Below are positions 3,366 to 18,531 of a stretch of 24,124 nt of DNA, one piece after another. Under the pieces are notes generated by a model. It made no database searches. It was not told where the DNA came from and saw only the letters and a list, made by a program, of their open reading frames with translations. This DNA comes from a virus, in the IMG/VR virus record IMGVR_UViG_3300009068_000188, positions 1-24,124 of that record; one strand, given 5' to 3'. The translations under genes and the position numbers were made by a program. Every line of letters begins with the position of its first letter. The stretch's first letter is position 1.

Positions 3366-5342
3366 ATGCCTCCAAATTTACAATCAAATCCATTTGATTC
3401 ACCATTAAGTGCAATTGTCCTCACAAGTTCTTTGAAGCCAGATTATGCCTTTAATATTTTAAACAGAAATAGTCAATGCCAGTTTCAACGGCTGGAATTA
3501 GAAGAAAGTGCATTTGAAATATTTCCTGTTGGTGCTATAGTTGTACGTGATACTCAGGACATTACCACTTTCATTCAAAATAATAATATTGATTATGCTT
3601 TGATGTATATGATTGATGGAACCATTATTAGACTTTCTATTACTAGCACAACTTATGTAAACAATGCAGCTGCTGAAACTGAAGAAAATTTTGTATCTAT
3701 AAATGTTACAAATAGTTTTTATAAATTATCTCAAAAAACTTCAGCATCGGATTTATTAACATCCAATGGAAAACTTGAAGATAGAGTTGATTCTTTACAA
3801 AATATTTTAACTTATTTTGATCAAAATGTTTTTAATAAATTGGGATATGGTAGCCCTACTACAACATTTAAAGGTGAAAGTATTACTACAAGTCCTAGTA
3901 ACTTTTTTTGTTTAAAAATGTTAAGTCCGGGAAATAATAACCTAACATATGCAGCTACAGATAATGCTTTTCAATACTTAAATTATATCTCTAGTTTAGC
4001 TGTTGGGCCACAAACATCAACAGGAACAAGAGAACCAAGATACTTGTTTTGGTCAGAATTTGGTGATTATATCAATTTTAAATATTTTTATGAAAATAAA
4101 ATTGAAGATACTCAAACATTTACAAAATATAAAAACAAGAATTATAGATATAGCGTTTATGATTCAGATGTTCCATCACAAAAATCAACCAATGGTAATA
4201 TATATAAAAAAATCTATAATCTAAGAACAGATCCTACAAATCAATGGGTATCTAAAAATTATTTCTATGTTAGAAAAACACCAAAATTTTTAGATAGTGT
4301 GCCAACATTTTTAACTACTGCGCAAGAAAAACAAAATTATACTACAAAGGCTCTAACATATCATTTTCAAGATGATGGAGAAAAATATAATATTGAAGTT
4401 ATAGCATCTAGTGGAGTAGTAAATGGAGTTACTTCTGGTGCTGATGAAATGATTTATGAAAAAGACTGGGGTTGGGTTTCTGATCATAACACAACAAATG
4501 ATAATGCCCCACCTACATATGGTTCTGGAGAATTTGGTTTTGGAAAATCATATTCTCAAATAAATTATATGGGAAATACAGGTTATTTTTCACATTCAGA
4601 TAATATTGATATGTGGAAAAATATGTTCGATACCACAGAAATTCATCCAAATTATCCAAATCCAGTTAATGCACCCACACCAGTAAATAATTTTTTATAT
4701 AATGTAATACAAACAAACTTAACAAATTTGTATAAATCAAACAGTTACATTCCTAAAAATTTAGAAATAAGACGACAAATAGAAAGAGAAAATTTTGTAT
4801 TATATTCTCTATGTTGTATGGGTGATGGTGAAGAATCATTCTTTGCAAATTTAATTCGTTATGAGCTAGATCCATATACTCTTCCACCTACGCCACAAAG
4901 TGCAATTGATATAATTTCAGGTGTTGGTCTAAAATGGCGTTATATGTGGGAAGGATTAAAATTTACTAATGCTGCAGGTAGTTCATACTGGATAGCAATG
5001 GAATTATGGGATATTGATGAAACAAATAAATCATCAGGTATAACAGCAAATGACACTTGGGCCATAAATTTAAACGAACGTACAGCGGGATTGGGAAATC
5101 CCAAATATTATCCGCCAGGTTGGGTTGGAAACAATATTCCTTCTGGGTTTACTTATAGGCCAATTGGATGTAACACGGCTAGTCCTAATAAAGAAGGTGC
5201 TACAATTGCACATATTGTAAAAATGTATAAAACTACTGCAGAAAGATTAGCTGTTGATGGTGGTGTAAGTATACCACCAGAATTAAAAGGAAAAATATTG
5301 TATTATTTTAGTGCCGAAAATGTAGTGGACGGGAGCTGCTAA
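3366..5342 (+). CDS. Baseplate hub protein (gp27-like), N-terminal part of a split hub
   Basis: This 658-aa protein is probably the main part of the tail hub that sits over the spike and opens the tube. The first 120 residues form a beta-rich domain with the T4 gp27-type pattern: a strand region ending in FQRLELEESAFEIFPVGAIVV, then DGTIIRLSI. A helix around residues 133-157 (KLEDRVDSLQNILTYF) follows. The segment with NAFQYLNYISSLAV and EPRYLFWSEFGDYINFKYFY (about residues 199-240) matches the hub pattern in which a helix precedes an FVFxW strand. It lacks the usual C-terminal beta-barrel, which appears in the next gene; the join is TAATG, so the two are translated together. It is longer than T4 gp27 (391 aa). 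No lysozyme domain is visible. Hub assignment is from motif order and context. Confidence 0.6.
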   Translation: MPPNLQSNPFDSPLSAIVLTSSLKPDYAFNILNRNSQCQFQRLELEESAFEIFPVGAIVVRDTQDITTFIQNNNIDYALMYMIDGTIIRLSITSTTYVNNAAAETEENFVSINVTNSFYKLSQKTSASDLLTSNGKLEDRVDSLQNILTYFDQNVFNKLGYGSPTTTFKGESITTSPSNFFCLKMLSPGNNNLTYAATDNAFQYLNYISSLAVGPQTSTGTREPRYLFWSEFGDYINFKYFYENKIEDTQTFTKYKNKNYRYSVYDSDVPSQKSTNGNIYKKIYNLRTDPTNQWVSKNYFYVRKTPKFLDSVPTFLTTAQEKQNYTTKALTYHFQDDGEKYNIEVIASSGVVNGVTSGADEMIYEKDWGWVSDHNTTNDNAPPTYGSGEFGFGKSYSQINYMGNTGYFSHSDNIDMWKNMFDTTEIHPNYPNPVNAPTPVNNFLYNVIQTNLTNLYKSNSYIPKNLEIRRQIERENFVLYSLCCMGDGEESFFANLIRYELDPYTLPPTPQSAIDIISGVGLKWRYMWEGLKFTNAAGSSYWIAMELWDIDETNKSSGITANDTWAINLNERTAGLGNPKYYPPGWVGNNIPSGFTYRPIGCNTASPNKEGATIAHIVKMYKTTAERLAVDGGVSIPPELKGKILYYFSAENVVDGSC

Positions 5343-6190
5343 TGCCAAAACGTGGAAAAACTGTAACTCTTGGTGCAAATGTTTTAAATGTCCCGCTTGG
5401 AAATTTTGGTGCCAGAGATGAGTATATATGTGCAAATGCACAATTAGTTCAGGGAGTAACTAGTATACCGTCTTCATTAGAAGAATGTTTTTCTAAATTT
5501 CCCGGCGTATTAGCTATTGCTTCTGCTATAGGGGTAACCGGATCAAATTCTCTTTGGTCATTTCCTGGTATTACATTTGGACCTACTGGACTTACATATC
5601 CTATAGACATATATCTTGGTACTGCTTCAAATGAATGCCAAGAAATAAATAAAAATAGTAAATTAGGACCAGATTTTTTTGGTTGTCTGTGGGGAGTACC
5701 AGAAGCTCCATATAATTGTAGCTGCCCTGAATTGGGTTCAAAATTTGAAGCATATTTAAAACTTAGATTAAATGTTGCTACTTTTTGGAATACTCCAAAA
5801 GCTACTCCAGTTAAAAGAAAAGAATTTTTGGATGCTTTAAAATATGCAAGAAAACTAACGATCAATATTGCAGGAGACTATACAATAAAAGTTGGTAACT
5901 TTGTAGAAATTTTAGCAAATAATATAAGTGGCTATCCATATTATTCAGGAGCATCTGTAATAAATGGTATTTATTGGGTACTTGGTGTAAAAAATGTTTT
6001 TACTAATTCTGGTACACATGAAACCATATTAACCTTATCTGATATTTTACCATCGACTTCAGTAGCACCAAATACTACACCTACTACACCCCCTACAGTT
6101 CCCCCTTGGAATACTAGTTTAAATATTCCAAATAATCCAAATAATTGGAATGATCCTTTCCAACCAAACAATGATCAGATATGGTCATAA
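5342..6190 (+). CDS. Hub-associated protein carrying a gp27-type C-terminal barrel
   Basis: This 282-aa protein overlaps the hub gene stop (TAATG). Residues about 135-225 look like the last beta-domain of phage hub proteins: a helix RKEFLDALKYARKLTI, strand pairs with DYTIKVGNFVEI, a small loop with SGYPYYSGAS, then GIYWVLGVKNVF and a T-x-LTLSD strand. The first 130 residues are Gly/Ser-rich and hold four cysteines, three of them closely spaced (FFGC, then NCSC), which suggests a loop-rich or metal-binding segment. The last 45 residues are a Pro/Thr/Asn-rich tail (PNTTPTTPPTVPPWN). I infer that the hub is built from this protein and its upstream neighbour. It could also be an independent spike-proximal protein, since no gp5-like gene is otherwise visible. 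Confidence 0.45.
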   Translation: MPKRGKTVTLGANVLNVPLGNFGARDEYICANAQLVQGVTSIPSSLEECFSKFPGVLAIASAIGVTGSNSLWSFPGITFGPTGLTYPIDIYLGTASNECQEINKNSKLGPDFFGCLWGVPEAPYNCSCPELGSKFEAYLKLRLNVATFWNTPKATPVKRKEFLDALKYARKLTINIAGDYTIKVGNFVEILANNISGYPYYSGASVINGIYWVLGVKNVFTNSGTHETILTLSDILPSTSVAPNTTPTTPPTVPPWNTSLNIPNNPNNWNDPFQPNNDQIWS

Positions 6191-7661: not shown

Positions 7662-8281
7662 TTCCACTGTTCTTTAATAGATTACCAGTTAGTCTAGACC
7701 AAAAAGTAGATATATTTATAAGAAAAGCCATTCAACAATATGGTTCTGAATATTATAATGTTGGAAAAGATAAGTTTATTGGTGACAACTTAACAGTTGA
7801 CTCATTATTTCCAGAATGGATTCTTCAAGCATATCAAAGTAATACTTTAAATGTTACAATTGTTCCTATTATAAAACAATATCTTCGTTGGTTATTCAGT
7901 ATAAAATATGGATATGGTGCATATATTTCGTGGGAAACTTTAAGAAGTCCAGTATATATGCCAACTGAACTATTACAGGGATTGGCTGAATTATATTTTC
8001 CTGGAGAAGATTTTTCATCTGATGAATTGTCAGATATTCTTCTAAATATTCCAAAATTTTCGATACAAGTAGATTATCAATACTTTGGAAAAAAAGGAAC
8101 TCCTGATGGCATTCGTTATGTGTTGACAACTCTAATGGGTTATAGTTATACAACTACTAAAGTTATTACTTTTAGCAATACAGTAATAAAAATTATTGCA
8201 AATATTTCAGATAATCATAAAGGATTTTTAGAAAGAAGTGTCATACCAGCAGGAATGGTCATTATATATGAGGCTCCATAA
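7658..8281 (+). CDS. Baseplate wedge protein, gp7/P2 gpI-like
   Basis: This 207-aa protein follows gp6 with an ATGA overlap. The N-terminal half is helical with FFNRLPVSLDQKVDIFI (about residues 4-20), the FPEW-x-L-x-AYQ motif (about 51-60) and KQYLRWLFSIKYG. The C-terminal half is beta-rich with YQYFGKKGTPDGIRYVLTTLMG (about 132-153), close to the GT-x-x-G/A-I/V-x-x-x-L motif of P2 gpI-type tail proteins. In P2, gpI follows gpW and gpJ; in T4 the corresponding wedge protein is the much longer gp7. Position and these motifs suggest it completes the inner wedge with gp25 and gp6. The homology to gp7 itself is inferred from position. Confidence 0.5.
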   Translation: MIPLFFNRLPVSLDQKVDIFIRKAIQQYGSEYYNVGKDKFIGDNLTVDSLFPEWILQAYQSNTLNVTIVPIIKQYLRWLFSIKYGYGAYISWETLRSPVYMPTELLQGLAELYFPGEDFSSDELSDILLNIPKFSIQVDYQYFGKKGTPDGIRYVLTTLMGYSYTTTKVITFSNTVIKIIANISDNHKGFLERSVIPAGMVIIYEAP

Positions 8282-8727
8282 TGTTAAAAAAGATTGTTTC
8301 GTTTGCCATGGCGATTGCCTCGCGTGGTTTTAATAATTATAAAACTGATCTGCCGACAAAACAACTAAGATACATTTCTTGTTATGGAAATGGTACTATA
8401 CCACCTTGTAAATTCTTAAAGAAAAGTAAAGATTCCAATCATTATTACTGTGGAAAATGTGGATGTGGGGATCACAAACATACTTGGCTTATAAGAGATC
8501 CGGGTGAATATTGTAAACTTGATTATCCTAAAATCGATTGTCCTTTAAAAATGCCCGGATTTAGTAATTATGATCCTAGCTTTTATGATAAAGAAGATGG
8601 AAATAGAAAACATTCTATTGAAAATTTGGATCCAGCATTCATTCAGTTGATACAATTAACCGTAAATAATAGTGAAGATAATCAGCGTTTATTTGAAAAA
8701 CTGAATAACATTATGAAAAATACATAA
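8281..8727 (+). CDS. Cysteine-rich protein of unknown function
   Basis: I do not recognise this 148-aa protein. It has seven cysteines at about residues 34, 43, 57, 60, 62, 78 and 87, arranged C-x8-C-x13-C-x2-C-x-C-x15-C-x8-C, with His54, His65 and His67 nearby. This could bind zinc or an Fe-S cluster. A conserved-looking block follows (CPLKMPGFSNYDP, about 87-99). The N-terminus (MLKKIVSFAMAIASRGF) is basic then hydrophobic, resembling a short amphipathic helix more than a clear signal peptide. The C-terminal 40 residues look helical. Its start overlaps the gp7/gpI-like stop (TAATG) and gp13 begins 9 bases after it. Its place between baseplate and neck genes suggests a late role, perhaps assembly or a redox or metal function. 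Confidence 0.75.
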   Translation: MLKKIVSFAMAIASRGFNNYKTDLPTKQLRYISCYGNGTIPPCKFLKKSKDSNHYYCGKCGCGDHKHTWLIRDPGEYCKLDYPKIDCPLKMPGFSNYDPSFYDKEDGNRKHSIENLDPAFIQLIQLTVNNSEDNQRLFEKLNNIMKNT

Positions 8728-9564: not shown

Positions 9565-10194
9565 ATGGCTATTAATCCATATTTTTCAAAATACCAAGGC
9601 GAACAAGATTTAGTTGAAGGAATTACCATTGAGATAATTCAAGCAACTGGTATTGAATGCATTTATATACCAAGAGAATATCTTTCAATAGATAGAATAT
9701 TTGGTGAAGATCCAGGATCATATTTTGATGAAGTTTTTCGTTTAGAAATGTATTTACAAAGTTATAAAGGATTCGAAGGCACCGATGTCATAACTCAGTT
9801 TGGACTAGAAATTAAAGATAAAGTAAATTTAGTTTTTGCAAGAAAAAGATTTAAACAAGAAGTCACAGATAATAAATCTTCAATTACAAGACCCCGTGAA
9901 GGAGATTTAATATATTTTCCACCATCAAAATCTTTGTTTGAAATAAACTTTGTAGAACATGAAAATCCATTCTATCCTCTAGGAAGATTGTATTCTTATT
10001 TTATAACTGCTGAACTCTTCACATACAGTTATGAAAAGATAGATACTAATGTTAAAGAAATTGATGATGTATATACAGAAACAAAATTAGAAAATCAATA
10101 TATTGTTTCTGAAGGATCTGGTCAATTTAGAGTGGGTGATACAGTTACATTATATAAAATATTAGGATCTGATAATATAAACATTAATAATTGA
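9565..10194 (+). CDS. 14: Neck protein gp14
   Basis: This 209-aa protein matches T4 gp14 (256 aa), the second collar protein. The sequence has the familiar opening with NPYF near the N-terminus, then the GIECIYIPREY strand (about residues 29-39), DRIFGEDPGSYFDE (about 43-56) and EGDLIYFPPSKSLFEI (about 112-127), where T4-like gp14 proteins carry the GD-x-x-Y-F-P motif and F-E-I-x-x-V. It begins one base after the gp13 stop and ends 10 bases before a large RCC1-type gene, whereas gp15 would normally follow directly. The C-terminus is shorter than in T4. Confidence 0.88.
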   Translation: MAINPYFSKYQGEQDLVEGITIEIIQATGIECIYIPREYLSIDRIFGEDPGSYFDEVFRLEMYLQSYKGFEGTDVITQFGLEIKDKVNLVFARKRFKQEVTDNKSSITRPREGDLIYFPPSKSLFEINFVEHENPFYPLGRLYSYFITAELFTYSYEKIDTNVKEIDDVYTETKLENQYIVSEGSGQFRVGDTVTLYKILGSDNININN

Positions 10195-10204
10195 TAGGAA
10201 TAAT

Positions 10205-13200
10205 ATGGCAATTTTTATTAAAAGTAGAGAAAGAGCACCAACTACTCCAATAAGTATTTCTCCAACTGGTGCAACTTTGGGGCCAGCAGCACATTTATTA
10301 GTTTGGGGTAAGTTTGGAAATACATATGCACACAATCCAGCTTTTTATTCTTTGGCATACTATGATGGTAATAGTAGATGGAACAGGGGACCATCATATC
10401 CAGCACTAACATGGGCGATTCCTTGCATAACTCCAAATCTGTATCCTCAATGGGATAATTTTAATATTGAAAATTTTGTGATGGGAAATGATTCTGGTTT
10501 TGGTATTGGAACCAGATATGTAAATTATCAAAATGGATGTAAACTAAACAATTTGGAAAACTTTGATGTAGGTACTTCACAAAAACTTTTAATTTTTATT
10601 AATAAATCTGGTTTTACTTACAGCGATCCTAGTTTAAATAACATTGTAAATCCTCCATCATTTATTAATGATTATTTAAATTATTACAAATTTCTAGACT
10701 CATTATATTATCAGAGATATAACAGTGAAGCAATGTTATCATCTTATTATGATACAAATAATCCAGAATATAAATTAAAAGATTTAACAAATTATGATTT
10801 GTTGGCTGCTGGCACTTATCATTTTATGATGGGATATGGTAATACTTTATACGCTTGGGGCGAAAATTCAAATAATCAATGTAATATACCGGCTAATGCT
10901 ACTTCTACAATAAATTTAAAACAAATAACTGCTGGCAATGCTCATTCGCTTGCTTTATATTATACTGCAAACAAAGGAAGCACAATTATAGGATGGGGAT
11001 TAAACTCAAATGGGCAAATTACAATACCAAGTTCAATAGGAACAGGTGCAATACAAATTGCGTCTGGTTTTGATCATAATTTAGCATTAAGTGCAACTGG
11101 AGGTGTTGTTTGTTGGGGAAATAATAGTTATAATCAATGTAATATTCCCGTTGGTTTATCTGGAATAACTTTTATTGCTGCAGGCCACTACCATAGTATG
11201 GCAATAAAAACTGATGGAACTGTATATTGCTGGGGATTGAATACATCGGGGCAGTGCAATATTCCAAATGGAACTACTAATGGTTTTAGAATTGATGGTG
11301 GTTTGGAACATACTGTATTATTAAAAAAAGACGGAAGCATAAGTGCATGGGGAGGAAACACATTTTATCAAACTACTTTGCCAGACTGCCCAGGAAACAC
11401 ATTATTTAATAATAATGGTTTTGCAGAATTAGATTCAGGATTTAGAAATAATTGGCCAGTAAATATTCCAAATTCAGTAAGAGACATAAGATGTGGTAAA
11501 TATTCAAGTATTGCACTACATAATGGAATAATGATGTGGTACCATAAAGTAGTAATAGGTACAGTTTACCCAAATAATGGTCCAAAGTATCTTGCATATG
11601 CAAATAGTATCATAAATGAAGGATACAACCAGTATTACATACAGGGATTGACAAATAATTCAAATTTTCCTGGATGTACAGCAGCACATAAGTTGAGTTT
11701 GGTTTCAAATTCTAAACGATATGACATATACGATTATGATGATACAATACCAATATATCCACCTGATCCGAATATTCCAAATTCTGATTCTAGAGGCTAT
11801 AGATGGCCTATTAAACGAAATGGTTCTTTTTATAATACTTCATCATATGGTCAGGGGAATTCTGTTGGAAACACTGGATGTTGGTCTTTTGGTTATGGTG
11901 ATGATGGTATTTTTAGATCATATGATTATTTTGCACCACCAGATTTTAGTGGAGTTGGTTTAAGACGTAGACGTTGTTCTAATGCAAATTTATTTTGGCA
12001 ACCAGGACCGCCATCAAGGTATTCACAAAGACTATCTGGAGACTATTTTACAGATAATGGTTACGGATCAGATTTTAATTTTTATAACAGTGGTGGAATT
12101 CCTTGTTTATTAATATCTAAAAAACATTTTGTAGTTTGTCAACATTGGGCTTATCCCCATGTCTATTGGGAACAGCAATTTATGAGAAGAGATGGTAAAA
12201 CATTTAATGTTGCTGGAAATTTGGTTTCAAGAATATCAAATGGTCTGGGCGAATTTCCAGATCTTATGTTATTTGAAATGCAAAAGGAATTGGATCCAGA
12301 TGATGCACAAAATATTGCAATTTATAATAAATGGGCAGATTATTCAGGATTTACGGGAACACAAATGATAGATCCACAAGCAGTAATATTAAAAGGAATT
12401 ACTATTGCTGATGTTACTTCTAGTTTGGGTAAAATTAAATCTGCTATTGGACGTAGAATCTGGTGTATTGACGCCCAAGATAGAGCTTATGGTGGTAGAG
12501 TACAGGCTGTTAACAGAAATCTTAATTCAACATCAAATAAAGGATATTATTTAAATTTTATTCAAGCTAGTCCTAGCATATATGAACCATTAAATTGTTA
12601 TAATTTGGTATATTTGGGAGATAGTGGTTCGCCTTGGTTTATAACGGGTAGAGGACACACATATCATGCATCTTATGATGCATCTTTGGGAATTACTTTA
12701 CAGCCAACAATATTCTTAGGAATTGATACAGGTGCTAGAACTCCATTTTATAATGAAATTAATAATACTGATTATGATAGTCAGAATTCATTTAGAGATT
12801 ATGGAGCAACATTTGCTGACGGTGTTAATTTTCAATTTTTAACTAAATCACCAATACAGGTAATTAATGAATATTTAATAGCAGCTGGACAGCAACCTAT
12901 AGAACAAATTCCAATTGATGTTGGAAATCCACCATGGCCACCTTATATAATTCCTGTAGCAGGAGCATGTGCTAATCCAAATGAAATTGTAACGTCTTTA
13001 AATATTGATCCAAACTCTTTATTTTCAAATCTTAAAAATTCACCAACAGGAAATGAAATTATAGGAACAGCAAGTGTAGAATCAATTGATGGTAATATTT
13101 TAACTTTATCTGGTATTAGTGGCACTTTTATTATTTCGAATGATCAAAATAGTTATTCTATTGCAGGTGGGACTGCCGGAGCAGTATATAATAAAATAAA

Positions 13201-13324
13201 TCCATTTATAACTCCTTTGAATAATGGTTTGGGTACAACAGCAGGAGTTGGGAGTATATTAAATAATGAAGCGGCTGGTTATACTTTTGACAGTAATGAC
13301 CCTTTTGAAATATTTAATGGATAA
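10205..13324 (+). CDS. RCC1-repeat protein with chymotrypsin-like protease domain
   Basis: This 1039-aa protein is the largest gene here and has no T4 counterpart at this site. Residues about 200-400 contain at least five RCC1-like repeats of about 40 residues, each ending in a [AGC]WG-x-N-x3-Q-x3-[IL]P motif at 217-229, 263-275, 303-315, 342-354 and 381-393; a related VWGKFGN lies at 33-39. Such repeats usually build a beta-propeller. The C-terminal half carries a candidate serine protease triad: His647 in CQHW, Asp686 in FPDLMLFEM and Ser807 in GDSGSP (805-810), in the chymotrypsin order. About 145 residues follow, ending in a Gly/Asn/Ser-rich tail. AGGAA lies 5 bases before the ATG. The position between gp14 and gp15 suggests a virion neck or whisker-type protein, possibly host-facing. 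Whether the protease is active is unknown. Confidence 0.75.
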   Translation: MAIFIKSRERAPTTPISISPTGATLGPAAHLLVWGKFGNTYAHNPAFYSLAYYDGNSRWNRGPSYPALTWAIPCITPNLYPQWDNFNIENFVMGNDSGFGIGTRYVNYQNGCKLNNLENFDVGTSQKLLIFINKSGFTYSDPSLNNIVNPPSFINDYLNYYKFLDSLYYQRYNSEAMLSSYYDTNNPEYKLKDLTNYDLLAAGTYHFMMGYGNTLYAWGENSNNQCNIPANATSTINLKQITAGNAHSLALYYTANKGSTIIGWGLNSNGQITIPSSIGTGAIQIASGFDHNLALSATGGVVCWGNNSYNQCNIPVGLSGITFIAAGHYHSMAIKTDGTVYCWGLNTSGQCNIPNGTTNGFRIDGGLEHTVLLKKDGSISAWGGNTFYQTTLPDCPGNTLFNNNGFAELDSGFRNNWPVNIPNSVRDIRCGKYSSIALHNGIMMWYHKVVIGTVYPNNGPKYLAYANSIINEGYNQYYIQGLTNNSNFPGCTAAHKLSLVSNSKRYDIYDYDDTIPIYPPDPNIPNSDSRGYRWPIKRNGSFYNTSSYGQGNSVGNTGCWSFGYGDDGIFRSYDYFAPPDFSGVGLRRRRCSNANLFWQPGPPSRYSQRLSGDYFTDNGYGSDFNFYNSGGIPCLLISKKHFVVCQHWAYPHVYWEQQFMRRDGKTFNVAGNLVSRISNGLGEFPDLMLFEMQKELDPDDAQNIAIYNKWADYSGFTGTQMIDPQAVILKGITIADVTSSLGKIKSAIGRRIWCIDAQDRAYGGRVQAVNRNLNSTSNKGYYLNFIQASPSIYEPLNCYNLVYLGDSGSPWFITGRGHTYHASYDASLGITLQPTIFLGIDTGARTPFYNEINNTDYDSQNSFRDYGATFADGVNFQFLTKSPIQVINEYLIAAGQQPIEQIPIDVGNPPWPPYIIPVAGACANPNEIVTSLNIDPNSLFSNLKNSPTGNEIIGTASVESIDGNILTLSGISGTFIISNDQNSYSIAGGTAGAVYNKINPFITPLNNGLGTTAGVGSILNNEAAGYTFDSNDPFEIFNG

Positions 13325-13332
13325 GGTATAAT

Positions 13333-14016
13333 ATGTTTCCAAATCAATATTTTTACAATAAAAGTTTAAGAAAACTTGTAGTTGGTTTTGGTTCTTTGTT
13401 CAGCAACATTTATGTTGAGCACCCAAATCAAAATGATGAGGTAAATACTCAAATTTTAGTTCCAATAACTTACGCACCACAAGAAAAATTTATAAGAAGA
13501 CTATTGGAACCATCTTCAATTGATAATACGACAAGAATTGAAACTCAATTACCAAAATTGAGTTATATAATGACAAATATTCAGCCAGATCCAAGCAGAA
13601 GACGAAATATTAATACTCCATCTTTAACAAGAACTACAGCAAATTGTGCAGAAAATCCATTAGTTATAAATGAAGAAGTTCCAGTTAACATTGGATTTTC
13701 ATTATTTATTTACACAAGACATATTGATGATACTTTGCAAATTATTGAACAGATTATGCCTTATTTTAATCCACAGCATGTAATAACAATGGATTTAAAT
13801 GAAGCAAAGCCCGGCACAAATATACCCATTACCATGGTATCTAATAGTATTACTGAAAGATATGATGGAGATTTTTCTAATCGTCGGGTTAATATTTCTT
13901 CGTTTAATTTTGTAGCAAAAAGTTATATATATGGAAAAGTCCAATCTGGAACTACAATCAATGCAGTTTCTGTTTCTGGCCTAACAGCTGGACTTGCATA
14001 TGGATTTGACTCATGA
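13333..14016 (+). CDS. 15: Tail completion and sheath-stabiliser protein gp15
   Basis: This 227-aa protein matches T4 gp15 (272 aa), which caps the head-proximal end of the tail and stabilises the sheath before joining. Typical marks are the N-terminal YFYNKSLRKLVVGFGSLFSN (about residues 6-25), the EVNTQILVPITYAPQEKFIRR block (about 36-56), and the LPKLSYIM strand (about 75-82), followed by a helix near 137-147 (TLQIIEQIMPYFNP). In T4 it follows gp14 directly; here the RCC1-protease gene intervenes. Its stop overlaps the next gene as ATGA. Confidence 0.88.
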   Translation: MFPNQYFYNKSLRKLVVGFGSLFSNIYVEHPNQNDEVNTQILVPITYAPQEKFIRRLLEPSSIDNTTRIETQLPKLSYIMTNIQPDPSRRRNINTPSLTRTTANCAENPLVINEEVPVNIGFSLFIYTRHIDDTLQIIEQIMPYFNPQHVITMDLNEAKPGTNIPITMVSNSITERYDGDFSNRRVNISSFNFVAKSYIYGKVQSGTTINAVSVSGLTAGLAYGFDS

Positions 14017-17422: not shown

Positions 17423-17962
17423 ATGGCATCATATAACTCATTAAACCAATTTAAAGCTGGGTTTAAGGGCGGTACTAGAGCAAACCGTTTTCGTGTTATT
17501 CCTAATTTTCCCAGTAGAGTAAATGTTGGAAATAATAATACTACTAGTTCATTTCTTATATCATCTGGTTCATTACCAAAAGCAGATGTTGGTGTTATAG
17601 GTGTTCCATACAGAGGAAGAATGGCCTATTTTGCAGGAGATCGTCAATATTCTGTATGGCCAATTAGAATTTATGATGATAATGATAGTGCTCTGTGGAA
17701 AGCCTTTAATAGTTGGAAAGAAAAATTAGACGGCCACCTTACACATCAAGTGGAAGGTAATAATTATTCATATTCAAATTTACAAACTACTTTTTTTATA
17801 GAACAATTAAAACCAAATGGTGAAGTATTAAGAAAAATTAAGTTAAATAGATGTTGGCCAAGTGAAGTAGGTGGAATTAATTTTGACTTAGGTTCATCTG
17901 AATTTGTAACCTTTGATGTAACTTTAACATTTGATTTTATAGACATACTTACTGGAATTTGA
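17423..17962 (+). CDS. 19: Tail tube protein gp19, first paralogue
   Basis: This 179-aa protein opens with LNQFKAGFKGGTRANRFRV (about residues 6-24), the tube family signature, followed by SGSLPKADVGVIGVPYRGR (about 48-66), a DDNDSALWKAFNSWKE helix (about 86-101), and the KLNRCWPSEVGGINFD strand pair (about 140-155) with a closing strand TFDVTLTFDF. T4 gp19 is 163 aa and polymerises into the tube that delivers DNA. It begins one base after the sheath stop and ends next to a second tube gene. The more regular core makes this the likelier main subunit. Confidence 0.88.
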   Translation: MASYNSLNQFKAGFKGGTRANRFRVIPNFPSRVNVGNNNTTSSFLISSGSLPKADVGVIGVPYRGRMAYFAGDRQYSVWPIRIYDDNDSALWKAFNSWKEKLDGHLTHQVEGNNYSYSNLQTTFFIEQLKPNGEVLRKIKLNRCWPSEVGGINFDLGSSEFVTFDVTLTFDFIDILTGI

Positions 17963-17964
17963 TC

Positions 17965-18531
17965 ATGGCATCACTAAATGAATTTAAAGATAACTTTAAA
18001 GGTGGTACCCGCCAAAATAGATTTTTGGTGACAGGAAGTTTTCCTTCTGGGGCTGGTACAGCTTCTACATCAGGTAATTCTAATAATGCTGGAACTGCAA
18101 TTCCATTTCATATTAGATCAACCCTTATACCTACACTACAGACAAGCACAGTTTCATACGACTATTTTGGTAGAAAGTTAAACTATCCCGGTGAAAAACT
18201 TTATTCTACATGGTCTGTGTCCATTGTAGATGACACGGATAGCGGAGATTTGTGGAAAAAATTTCATCGGTGGCATAATTATATAAACAATCATGTTGAT
18301 AATACAACAAGATATTCAATTACGCCAAACTATAAAGTTAACTGGTATATTGAACATCTTGGATTAAATGAAAATGTTTTGAAGCGTTTTCGTTTAAATG
18401 GATTGTGGCCTAGAACAATAAATGAGATGTCTTTTAGTATGGCTCGTCCAAATGTGTTAAATACTTTTAACGTAGTGTTTGTTTATGATACAATTTCGAT
18501 TGATAGCATAACACAAACAGACAGATTATAA
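17965..18531 (+). CDS. Second tail tube paralogue (gp19-like)
   Basis: This protein of about 188 residues repeats the tube layout of its neighbour: LNEFKDNFKGGTRQNRFLV at the N-terminus, STLIPTLQTSTVSYDYFGRK in the middle, DLWKKFHRWHNYINNH where the other has its DSALWKAFNSWKE helix, and KRFRLNGLWPRTINEMSF matching KLNRCWPSEVGGINF. I start it at the ATG at 17965, two bases after the first gene's stop, not at an in-frame TTG six bases earlier, because MASLNEF aligns with the first paralogue's start. It carries a Ser/Gly/Asn-rich insert (about residues 30-45). It may be a minor tube component, tube terminus or baseplate-proximal ring. Confidence 0.85.
   Translation: MASLNEFKDNFKGGTRQNRFLVTGSFPSGAGTASTSGNSNNAGTAIPFHIRSTLIPTLQTSTVSYDYFGRKLNYPGEKLYSTWSVSIVDDTDSGDLWKKFHRWHNYINNHVDNTTRYSITPNYKVNWYIEHLGLNENVLKRFRLNGLWPRTINEMSFSMARPNVLNTFNVVFVYDTISIDSITQTDRL

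Follow-up and report, generated by a model that had tools for sequence, protein, structure and literature searches.

The locus considered here raises the question of what a protein of 1039 aa is doing in the neck cluster of a T4-like phage, between genes 14 and 15, given that gp15 directly follows gp14 in most relatives. The stretch of DNA analysed (hereafter the window), an IMG/VR virus record, has 24,124 bases, and its terminase shares around 50% identity with those of Kyanoviridae phages. The ORF in question (10205-13324, on the plus strand, as are the features given below for genes 14 and 15 and the insert) is intact and begins with an ATG. It is preceded by a gene for gp14 (9565-10194; 209 aa; PF11649, E=2e-41; PHROG head closure Hc2) and followed by a gene for gp15, the tail sheath stabiliser (13333-14016; PF16724, E=1e-54), so that the position assigned to it in the initial annotation, within the neck cluster and between T4-type genes 14 and 15, is confirmed by the Pfam matches of its neighbours. 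However, the accompanying view that a gene has simply been added between two others does not survive, since gene 14 is not intact: judged from sequence, the ORF interrupts it, and the C-terminus of the ORF product is the C-terminus of gp14.

The upstream ORF of the window (9565-10194) retains a complete T4-type N-terminal gp14 core (PF11649) and lacks both the C-terminal half of a small domain and the C-terminal tail, and it is these two elements that form the last ~85 residues of the product of ORF 10205-13324, placing gp14 core and tail on separate chains. The second part of the small domain occupies residues 951-1000 (13055-13204) and is followed by the tail (TPLNNGLGTTAGVGSILNNEAAGYTFDSNDPFEIF; 13205-13321), which over 33 aa shares 76% identity with the C-terminus of the gp14 of L010. 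Among 106 distinct gp14 sequences, the tail (for example IIPLNNGLGTTAGSNDILQTEAAGYTFDPNNPF in relatives without the insert) is present on gp14 in 96 of 96 non-carriers and in none of the 10 carriers. It could be proposed that this is an ordinary extra gene, its C-terminal likeness to gp14 being due to chance or independent acquisition, and the ORF is indeed separate, with its own start and a ribosome-binding-like site. Yet in BLASTP its end matches residues 211-296 of the unsplit gp14 of L006 at 58% identity over 86 aa (E=3e-31), and the end of the L033 insert protein similarly matches the gp14 of L044 (57% over 83 aa, 9e-33). Moreover, the gp14 tail is missing from gp14 in every carrier, and the tails are matched by lineage (L033 with L044, the window with L006, and L025 with L055). 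The notion of an ordinary extra gene is already contradicted by these observations, and we consider it very improbable.

A third form of gp14, 287-297 aa in length (L006, L044 and L055), possesses a small extra domain ahead of the tail, and it is this domain that is cut in carriers, with its first hairpin (SEGSGQFRVGDTVTL) ending the short gp14 and its remainder, together with the tail, ending the insert protein. In the window the first part (YIVSEGSGQFRVGDTVTL; 10099-10155) closes the truncated gp14; it is kept in all carriers and matches the intact domain of the three unsplit long forms. A DNA pattern for the small domain plus tail, scanned across all of IMG/VR, identified 23 contigs, each containing either an unsplit gp14 or an insert ORF, and no case outside these two contexts. 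At the DNA level, the alignment of L106 with L009 breaks at one point and resumes after 22 bp in the former or 2.68 kb in the latter, while the window and L047 match outside 10065-13347, to which 176 bp correspond in L047. Homology at this level reaches ~140 nt into the insert ORF at its beginning and ~250 nt at its end, as if the part between these two conserved segments could be swapped. On a tree of gp14 cores, carriers require about 5-6 gains or losses and adjoin unsplit long forms in three places, and the arrangement may have originated by insertion into a long gp14 or, conversely, excision may have yielded the long form. A mobile element was considered and rejected, as the insert showed no target duplications and no inverted ends, apart from AT-rich 9-mers in L033. 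In the Synechococcus phage S-SRM01 (L092:5992-7948), gp14 contains repeated insert domains and reaches 463 aa, and genes 14 and 15 are separated by an HNH gene, indicating that the C-terminal part of gene 14 tolerates other expansions.

The two parts of gene 14 are probably not joined during translation. In carriers the start codon of the insert lies 2-21 nt past the gp14 stop, and an AGGA-like site is often present; in the window, the intergenic gap (TAGGAATAAT; 10195-10204) has a Shine-Dalgarno-like AGGA immediately 5' of the ORF, at 10197-10200. Since the relative frame of the two ORFs differs among carriers, a programmed frameshift fusing gp14 to the insert is ruled out, and the two may instead be translated separately, possibly in a coupled manner.

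Searches with gp14, a protease profile and a full-length profile recovered the insert gene in L001, L003, L004, L005, L007, L008, L009, L025, L033/L037 and L085. In all of these it follows gp14, and it precedes gp15 wherever the contig continues, with a cargo of ~2.7-3.2 kb (750-950 residues). The window protein (10205-13324) comprises an N-region, an RCC1/BLIP-II-type propeller, a putative PA-clan serine protease and the C-terminal half of gp14; its N-terminal ~40 residues (10205-10324), which precede a hypervariable stretch, are 70-75% identical to those of the closest carriers, the L003 group. A stand-alone protease of 434 aa without a propeller was found in a different gene context in L043 (L043:5679-6983), 17 bases upstream of gp14. 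Neither gp13 nor gp15 was found in this 64.7-kb record, which is possibly a fragment. The gp14 homologues of L043 (within L043:5163-7654) and L059 are located outside the usual neck cluster, and in L043 a 170-aa ORF, the end of which appears Fn3-like by eye, also precedes gp14. Among 50,697 records of cultured phages none contains the protease, and RCC1-only matches occur in 14. A single scan of bacterial genomes gave 22 pattern matches and no relatives, and no match to psbA, a marker of cyanophage hosts, was detected in six larger relatives, which are possibly fragments.

Concerning the first module of the cargo, the five RCC1-like repeats initially described are all present, with WG-x-N-x3-Q motifs at W218, W264, W304, W343 and W382 (spacings of 46, 40, 39 and 39 residues). 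RCC1_2 (PF13540) matches in five stretches (E=4e-34; 115.9 bits against a cut-off of 22) and WD40_RLD matches with E=8e-48, and on these grounds the repeats are not due to chance. The propeller spans residues 196-450 (10790-11554), comprising the five Pfam repeats and a degenerate sixth near W445. AlphaFold2, given an alignment of 11 sequences, returned pLDDT values of about 75-93 over residues 201-380, and Foldseek ranked chains of BLIP-II (1jtd_B, E=2.7e-22, 28-32% identity) first, with eukaryotic RCC1-like domains further down. The expectation of a propeller is therefore upheld, and the repeats are of RCC1 type, but their description as eukaryotic is not, given that the closest structural match is a secreted bacterial protein. 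The likeness to BLIP-II (1jtd_B, 3qhy, 3qi0) extends to blade type, a repeat spacing of ~40 residues and TM-scores to target of 0.69-0.72. Unlike BLIP-II, the window propeller is fused to a putative protease and a neck tail, and its ligand need not be a beta-lactamase. In the two large carrier records, of 126 and 137 kb, RCC1_2 matches the neck ORF only. Upstream of gp48, two non-carriers encode a Cys-rich protein of ~1835 aa in which RCC1 repeats are present in degenerate form (L255:1619-7126 and L256:5354-10879).

The second module, at about residues 500-895 (11702-12889), is a putative protease domain supported by invariant columns, Foldseek matches and the stand-alone L043 homologue, which fixes the start of the domain. 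His647 (12143-12145), Asp686 (12260-12262, in D-[LMI]-x-[LV]-[YF]-E) and Ser807 (12623-12625, in GDSGSP) are exactly as initially described and in chymotrypsin order. These predicted catalytic residues are invariant in all carriers and in L043, and when 11 proteins sharing 24-86% identity with the window protein are aligned, His, Asp and GDSG are among 21 invariant columns. Similarity to characterised families is more remote. A profile search of PDB sequences aligned all three residues with those of its best match, the thrombin-like enzyme 4gso (E=0.055), and a single-sequence search of the PDB gave nothing useful. Pfam Trypsin (PF00089) does not match the window protein; its best score, obtained for L043 only, is 13.8 bits, short of the 20.6 required. 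NCBIfam gave only a weak unrelated match. The full-length AlphaFold2 model did not resolve the protease region. For a low-confidence model of the L009 protease domain (pLDDT 51, pTM 0.57), Foldseek matches in the PDB were mostly chymotrypsin-fold proteases (prothrombin, trypsinogen, SplB, EV71 3C, DegS), with a best E of 0.018 and none below 1e-3. In a viral structure library an uncharacterised phage protein ranked first (1.2e-3), and most of the entries below it were picorna-like polyproteins, matches that presumably reflect 3C-type proteases. The domain shares with chymotrypsin-fold (PA clan, S1-like) proteases the His-Asp-Ser order, GDSG, D-[LMI]-x-[LV] after the Asp strand and the alignment to 4gso; it differs in its sub-threshold Pfam score, its long insertions and an N-terminal extension of its own (HDxYxY ... 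DxSG). On the strength of these models and alignments, a PA-clan fold is probable. The conserved residues of the initial annotation thus stand, whereas membership of the S1 family is not secured, the Trypsin score being below threshold and the model of low confidence.

The cargo diverges strongly between otherwise similar phages. Between the window and L004, gp14 and gp15 are 96-97% identical and the cargo ~51%; in phages with near-identical gp14 and gp15 the catalytic region (616-700) shares only 34-36% identity, as compared to 96% over the last 29 aligned residues. The window gp15 is 96% identical to that of the carrier L004 and 78% to that of the non-carrier L047, flanking gp13 and gp17 being 97-99% identical in both, and gp15 consequently varies together with the insert cassette. 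The propeller is under strong constraint (pN/pS of 0.09-0.23 in the carrier pairs tested), and higher values were obtained for the N-region, 431-615 and 841-895. Segment 841-895 between the window and L001 has a pN/pS of 3.3 (P=0.028, uncorrected), the only nominally significant value above 1, and from one pair. Since the cargo diverges while gp14 and gp15 remain near-identical, a changing partner outside the virion is favoured over a fixed virion substrate, and the variability suggests a host-facing role, although recombination without host selection could also generate it. The propeller, which is the likely binder, is the most conserved part of the cargo, contrary to what would be expected of a changing receptor-binding surface, and it is thus probably not the receptor binder that changes.

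These patterns bear on what the protease might do, for which the initial annotation offered both cleavage of a host structure and cleavage of the protein itself or of a virion partner; sequence variability leans towards the former. Under the latter, the enzyme would act in assembly or maturation, cutting either a neck partner or its own chain, for instance within the Pro-rich stretch at 896-950 that links it to the gp14 half-domain, so that the half-domain and tail stay in the virion and the propeller-protease is shed. The protease does lie directly upstream of this variable linker and the gp14 tail, and the protease-adhesin Hap, which autoprocesses to control adhesion, is among the PDB fold matches of the L009 model. 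Against this, the linker has no conserved motif resembling a shared cleavage site, and the low identity of region 616-700 between phages with near-identical necks is unexpected if the substrate is a conserved virion protein; we view maturation as a minority possibility, at roughly one chance in five. Another potential explanation is that the whole assembly is a structural or adhesive decoration of the neck, in which the propeller binds and the protease-like fold serves as a scaffold, with no relevant proteolysis. Similarity to known proteases is low, as this would predict, and neck decorations consisting of binding modules are known elsewhere, such as the neck passage structure of lactococcal phages (PMC6669499). 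However, structural reuse would need none of His, Asp, Ser and GDSG, which are invariant despite high divergence, and pure decoration appears the less probable of these two alternatives. Given this conservation and weak fold evidence, an active serine protease of chymotrypsin fold is the most likely identity of the domain. Its most likely substrate is a protein in the host envelope or surroundings, cut outside the virion during adsorption, with the propeller presumably serving as a binding or presenting scaffold.

How the cargo could be held on the virion is suggested by the structure of the T4 neck, where region 178-256 of gp14 remains disordered until the tail joins, whereupon it contacts residues 203-245 of gp15 extensively (PMC12270204). 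Because its end is homologous in position and NPF-like ending to that of T4 gp14, the insert protein appears to carry this gp15-docking element, which would make it a neck component present in up to six copies, one per gp14 subunit. On sequence evidence, the first ORF supplies the gp14 core and the first hairpin of the small C-terminal domain, and the second the propeller, the putative protease, the remaining small domain and the tail that docks to gp15 in T4. Most likely, the two gp14 pieces come together again on the gp14 hexamer through non-covalent contacts, which would lock up to six propeller-proteases into the head-tail joint, from which they would project. The ORF product is, on sequence grounds, most likely an obligate neck subunit displaying the propeller and protease, and the neck location first proposed for it is much strengthened by its bearing gp14's own tail. 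Taken as a whole, a split gene 14 with re-joined halves, a neck-mounted propeller and an active, outward-acting protease is the reading that we favour, with somewhat better than even confidence.

Comparisons with known systems set this arrangement apart. Carriers share with T4 gp14 (PF11649; PHROG 679/460, head closure Hc2) the core, the gene order 13-14-15 and a tail with a [DE]x[NS]PF-like motif at its end, but differ in having gp14 in two ORFs with a cargo of 750-950 residues, the tail being provided by the second protein. T4 fibritin (Wac) whiskers are likewise neck appendages; however, fibritin binds domain III of gp13 (PMC12270204) and wac lies before gene 13 in RB6, whereas the insert ORF follows the gp14 core, carries the gp14 tail and would attach at gp14/gp15. 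Consequently, of the original proposal of a neck or whisker protein, the neck is retained and the fibritin-type whisker is not, as the gene does not precede gene 13. In lactococcal phages, the neck passage structure and the evolved Dit also place accessory binding modules on conserved virion positions (PMC6669499, PMC10688798). These are carbohydrate-binding modules of siphophages and are not known to involve a split head-closure protein or a protease. Fragment shuffling in phage proteins is already known (PMC10684548). The literature searched, mainly open-access papers other than bioRxiv preprints, describes neither a split gene 14 nor an RCC1-protease neck protein. Within that literature, accessory neck and tail modules are known, and no head-closure protein divided by a protease-bearing insert was found. 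It seems reasonably probable that head closure is here performed by a two-chain split protein, the docking chain of which is an enzyme-bearing appendage, so that head-tail joining commits every virion to six propeller-proteases, with cargo exchanged among phages in the manner of a cartridge between two conserved ends. Such a natural split of a highly conserved head-closure protein would imply that the neck is usable as a mounting point for host-interaction machinery, and would mark a place in the necks of T4-like phages where large domains are naturally inserted. It makes two questions testable, namely whether a gp14 tail can act in trans and whether phages carry neck proteases.

Several further observations concern the surroundings of the locus. 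Between gp53 and gp25 (3366-6190) lie two ORFs, one of 658 and one of 282 aa, that recur in many relatives and gave no significant Pfam or PHROG match, and a Cys-containing ORF of 148 aa ahead of gp13 (8281-8727), conserved in relatives, matched no family in the same two collections. Gene order upstream of gp13 is rearranged with respect to the window in L001, L006 and L007, and in the L007 record the block from gp48 to gp3x is inverted and lies at another place. Finally, the window contains two adjacent gp19-like (tail tube-like) genes (17423-18531), the second of which is also found in many relatives and is 26-36% identical to the first.
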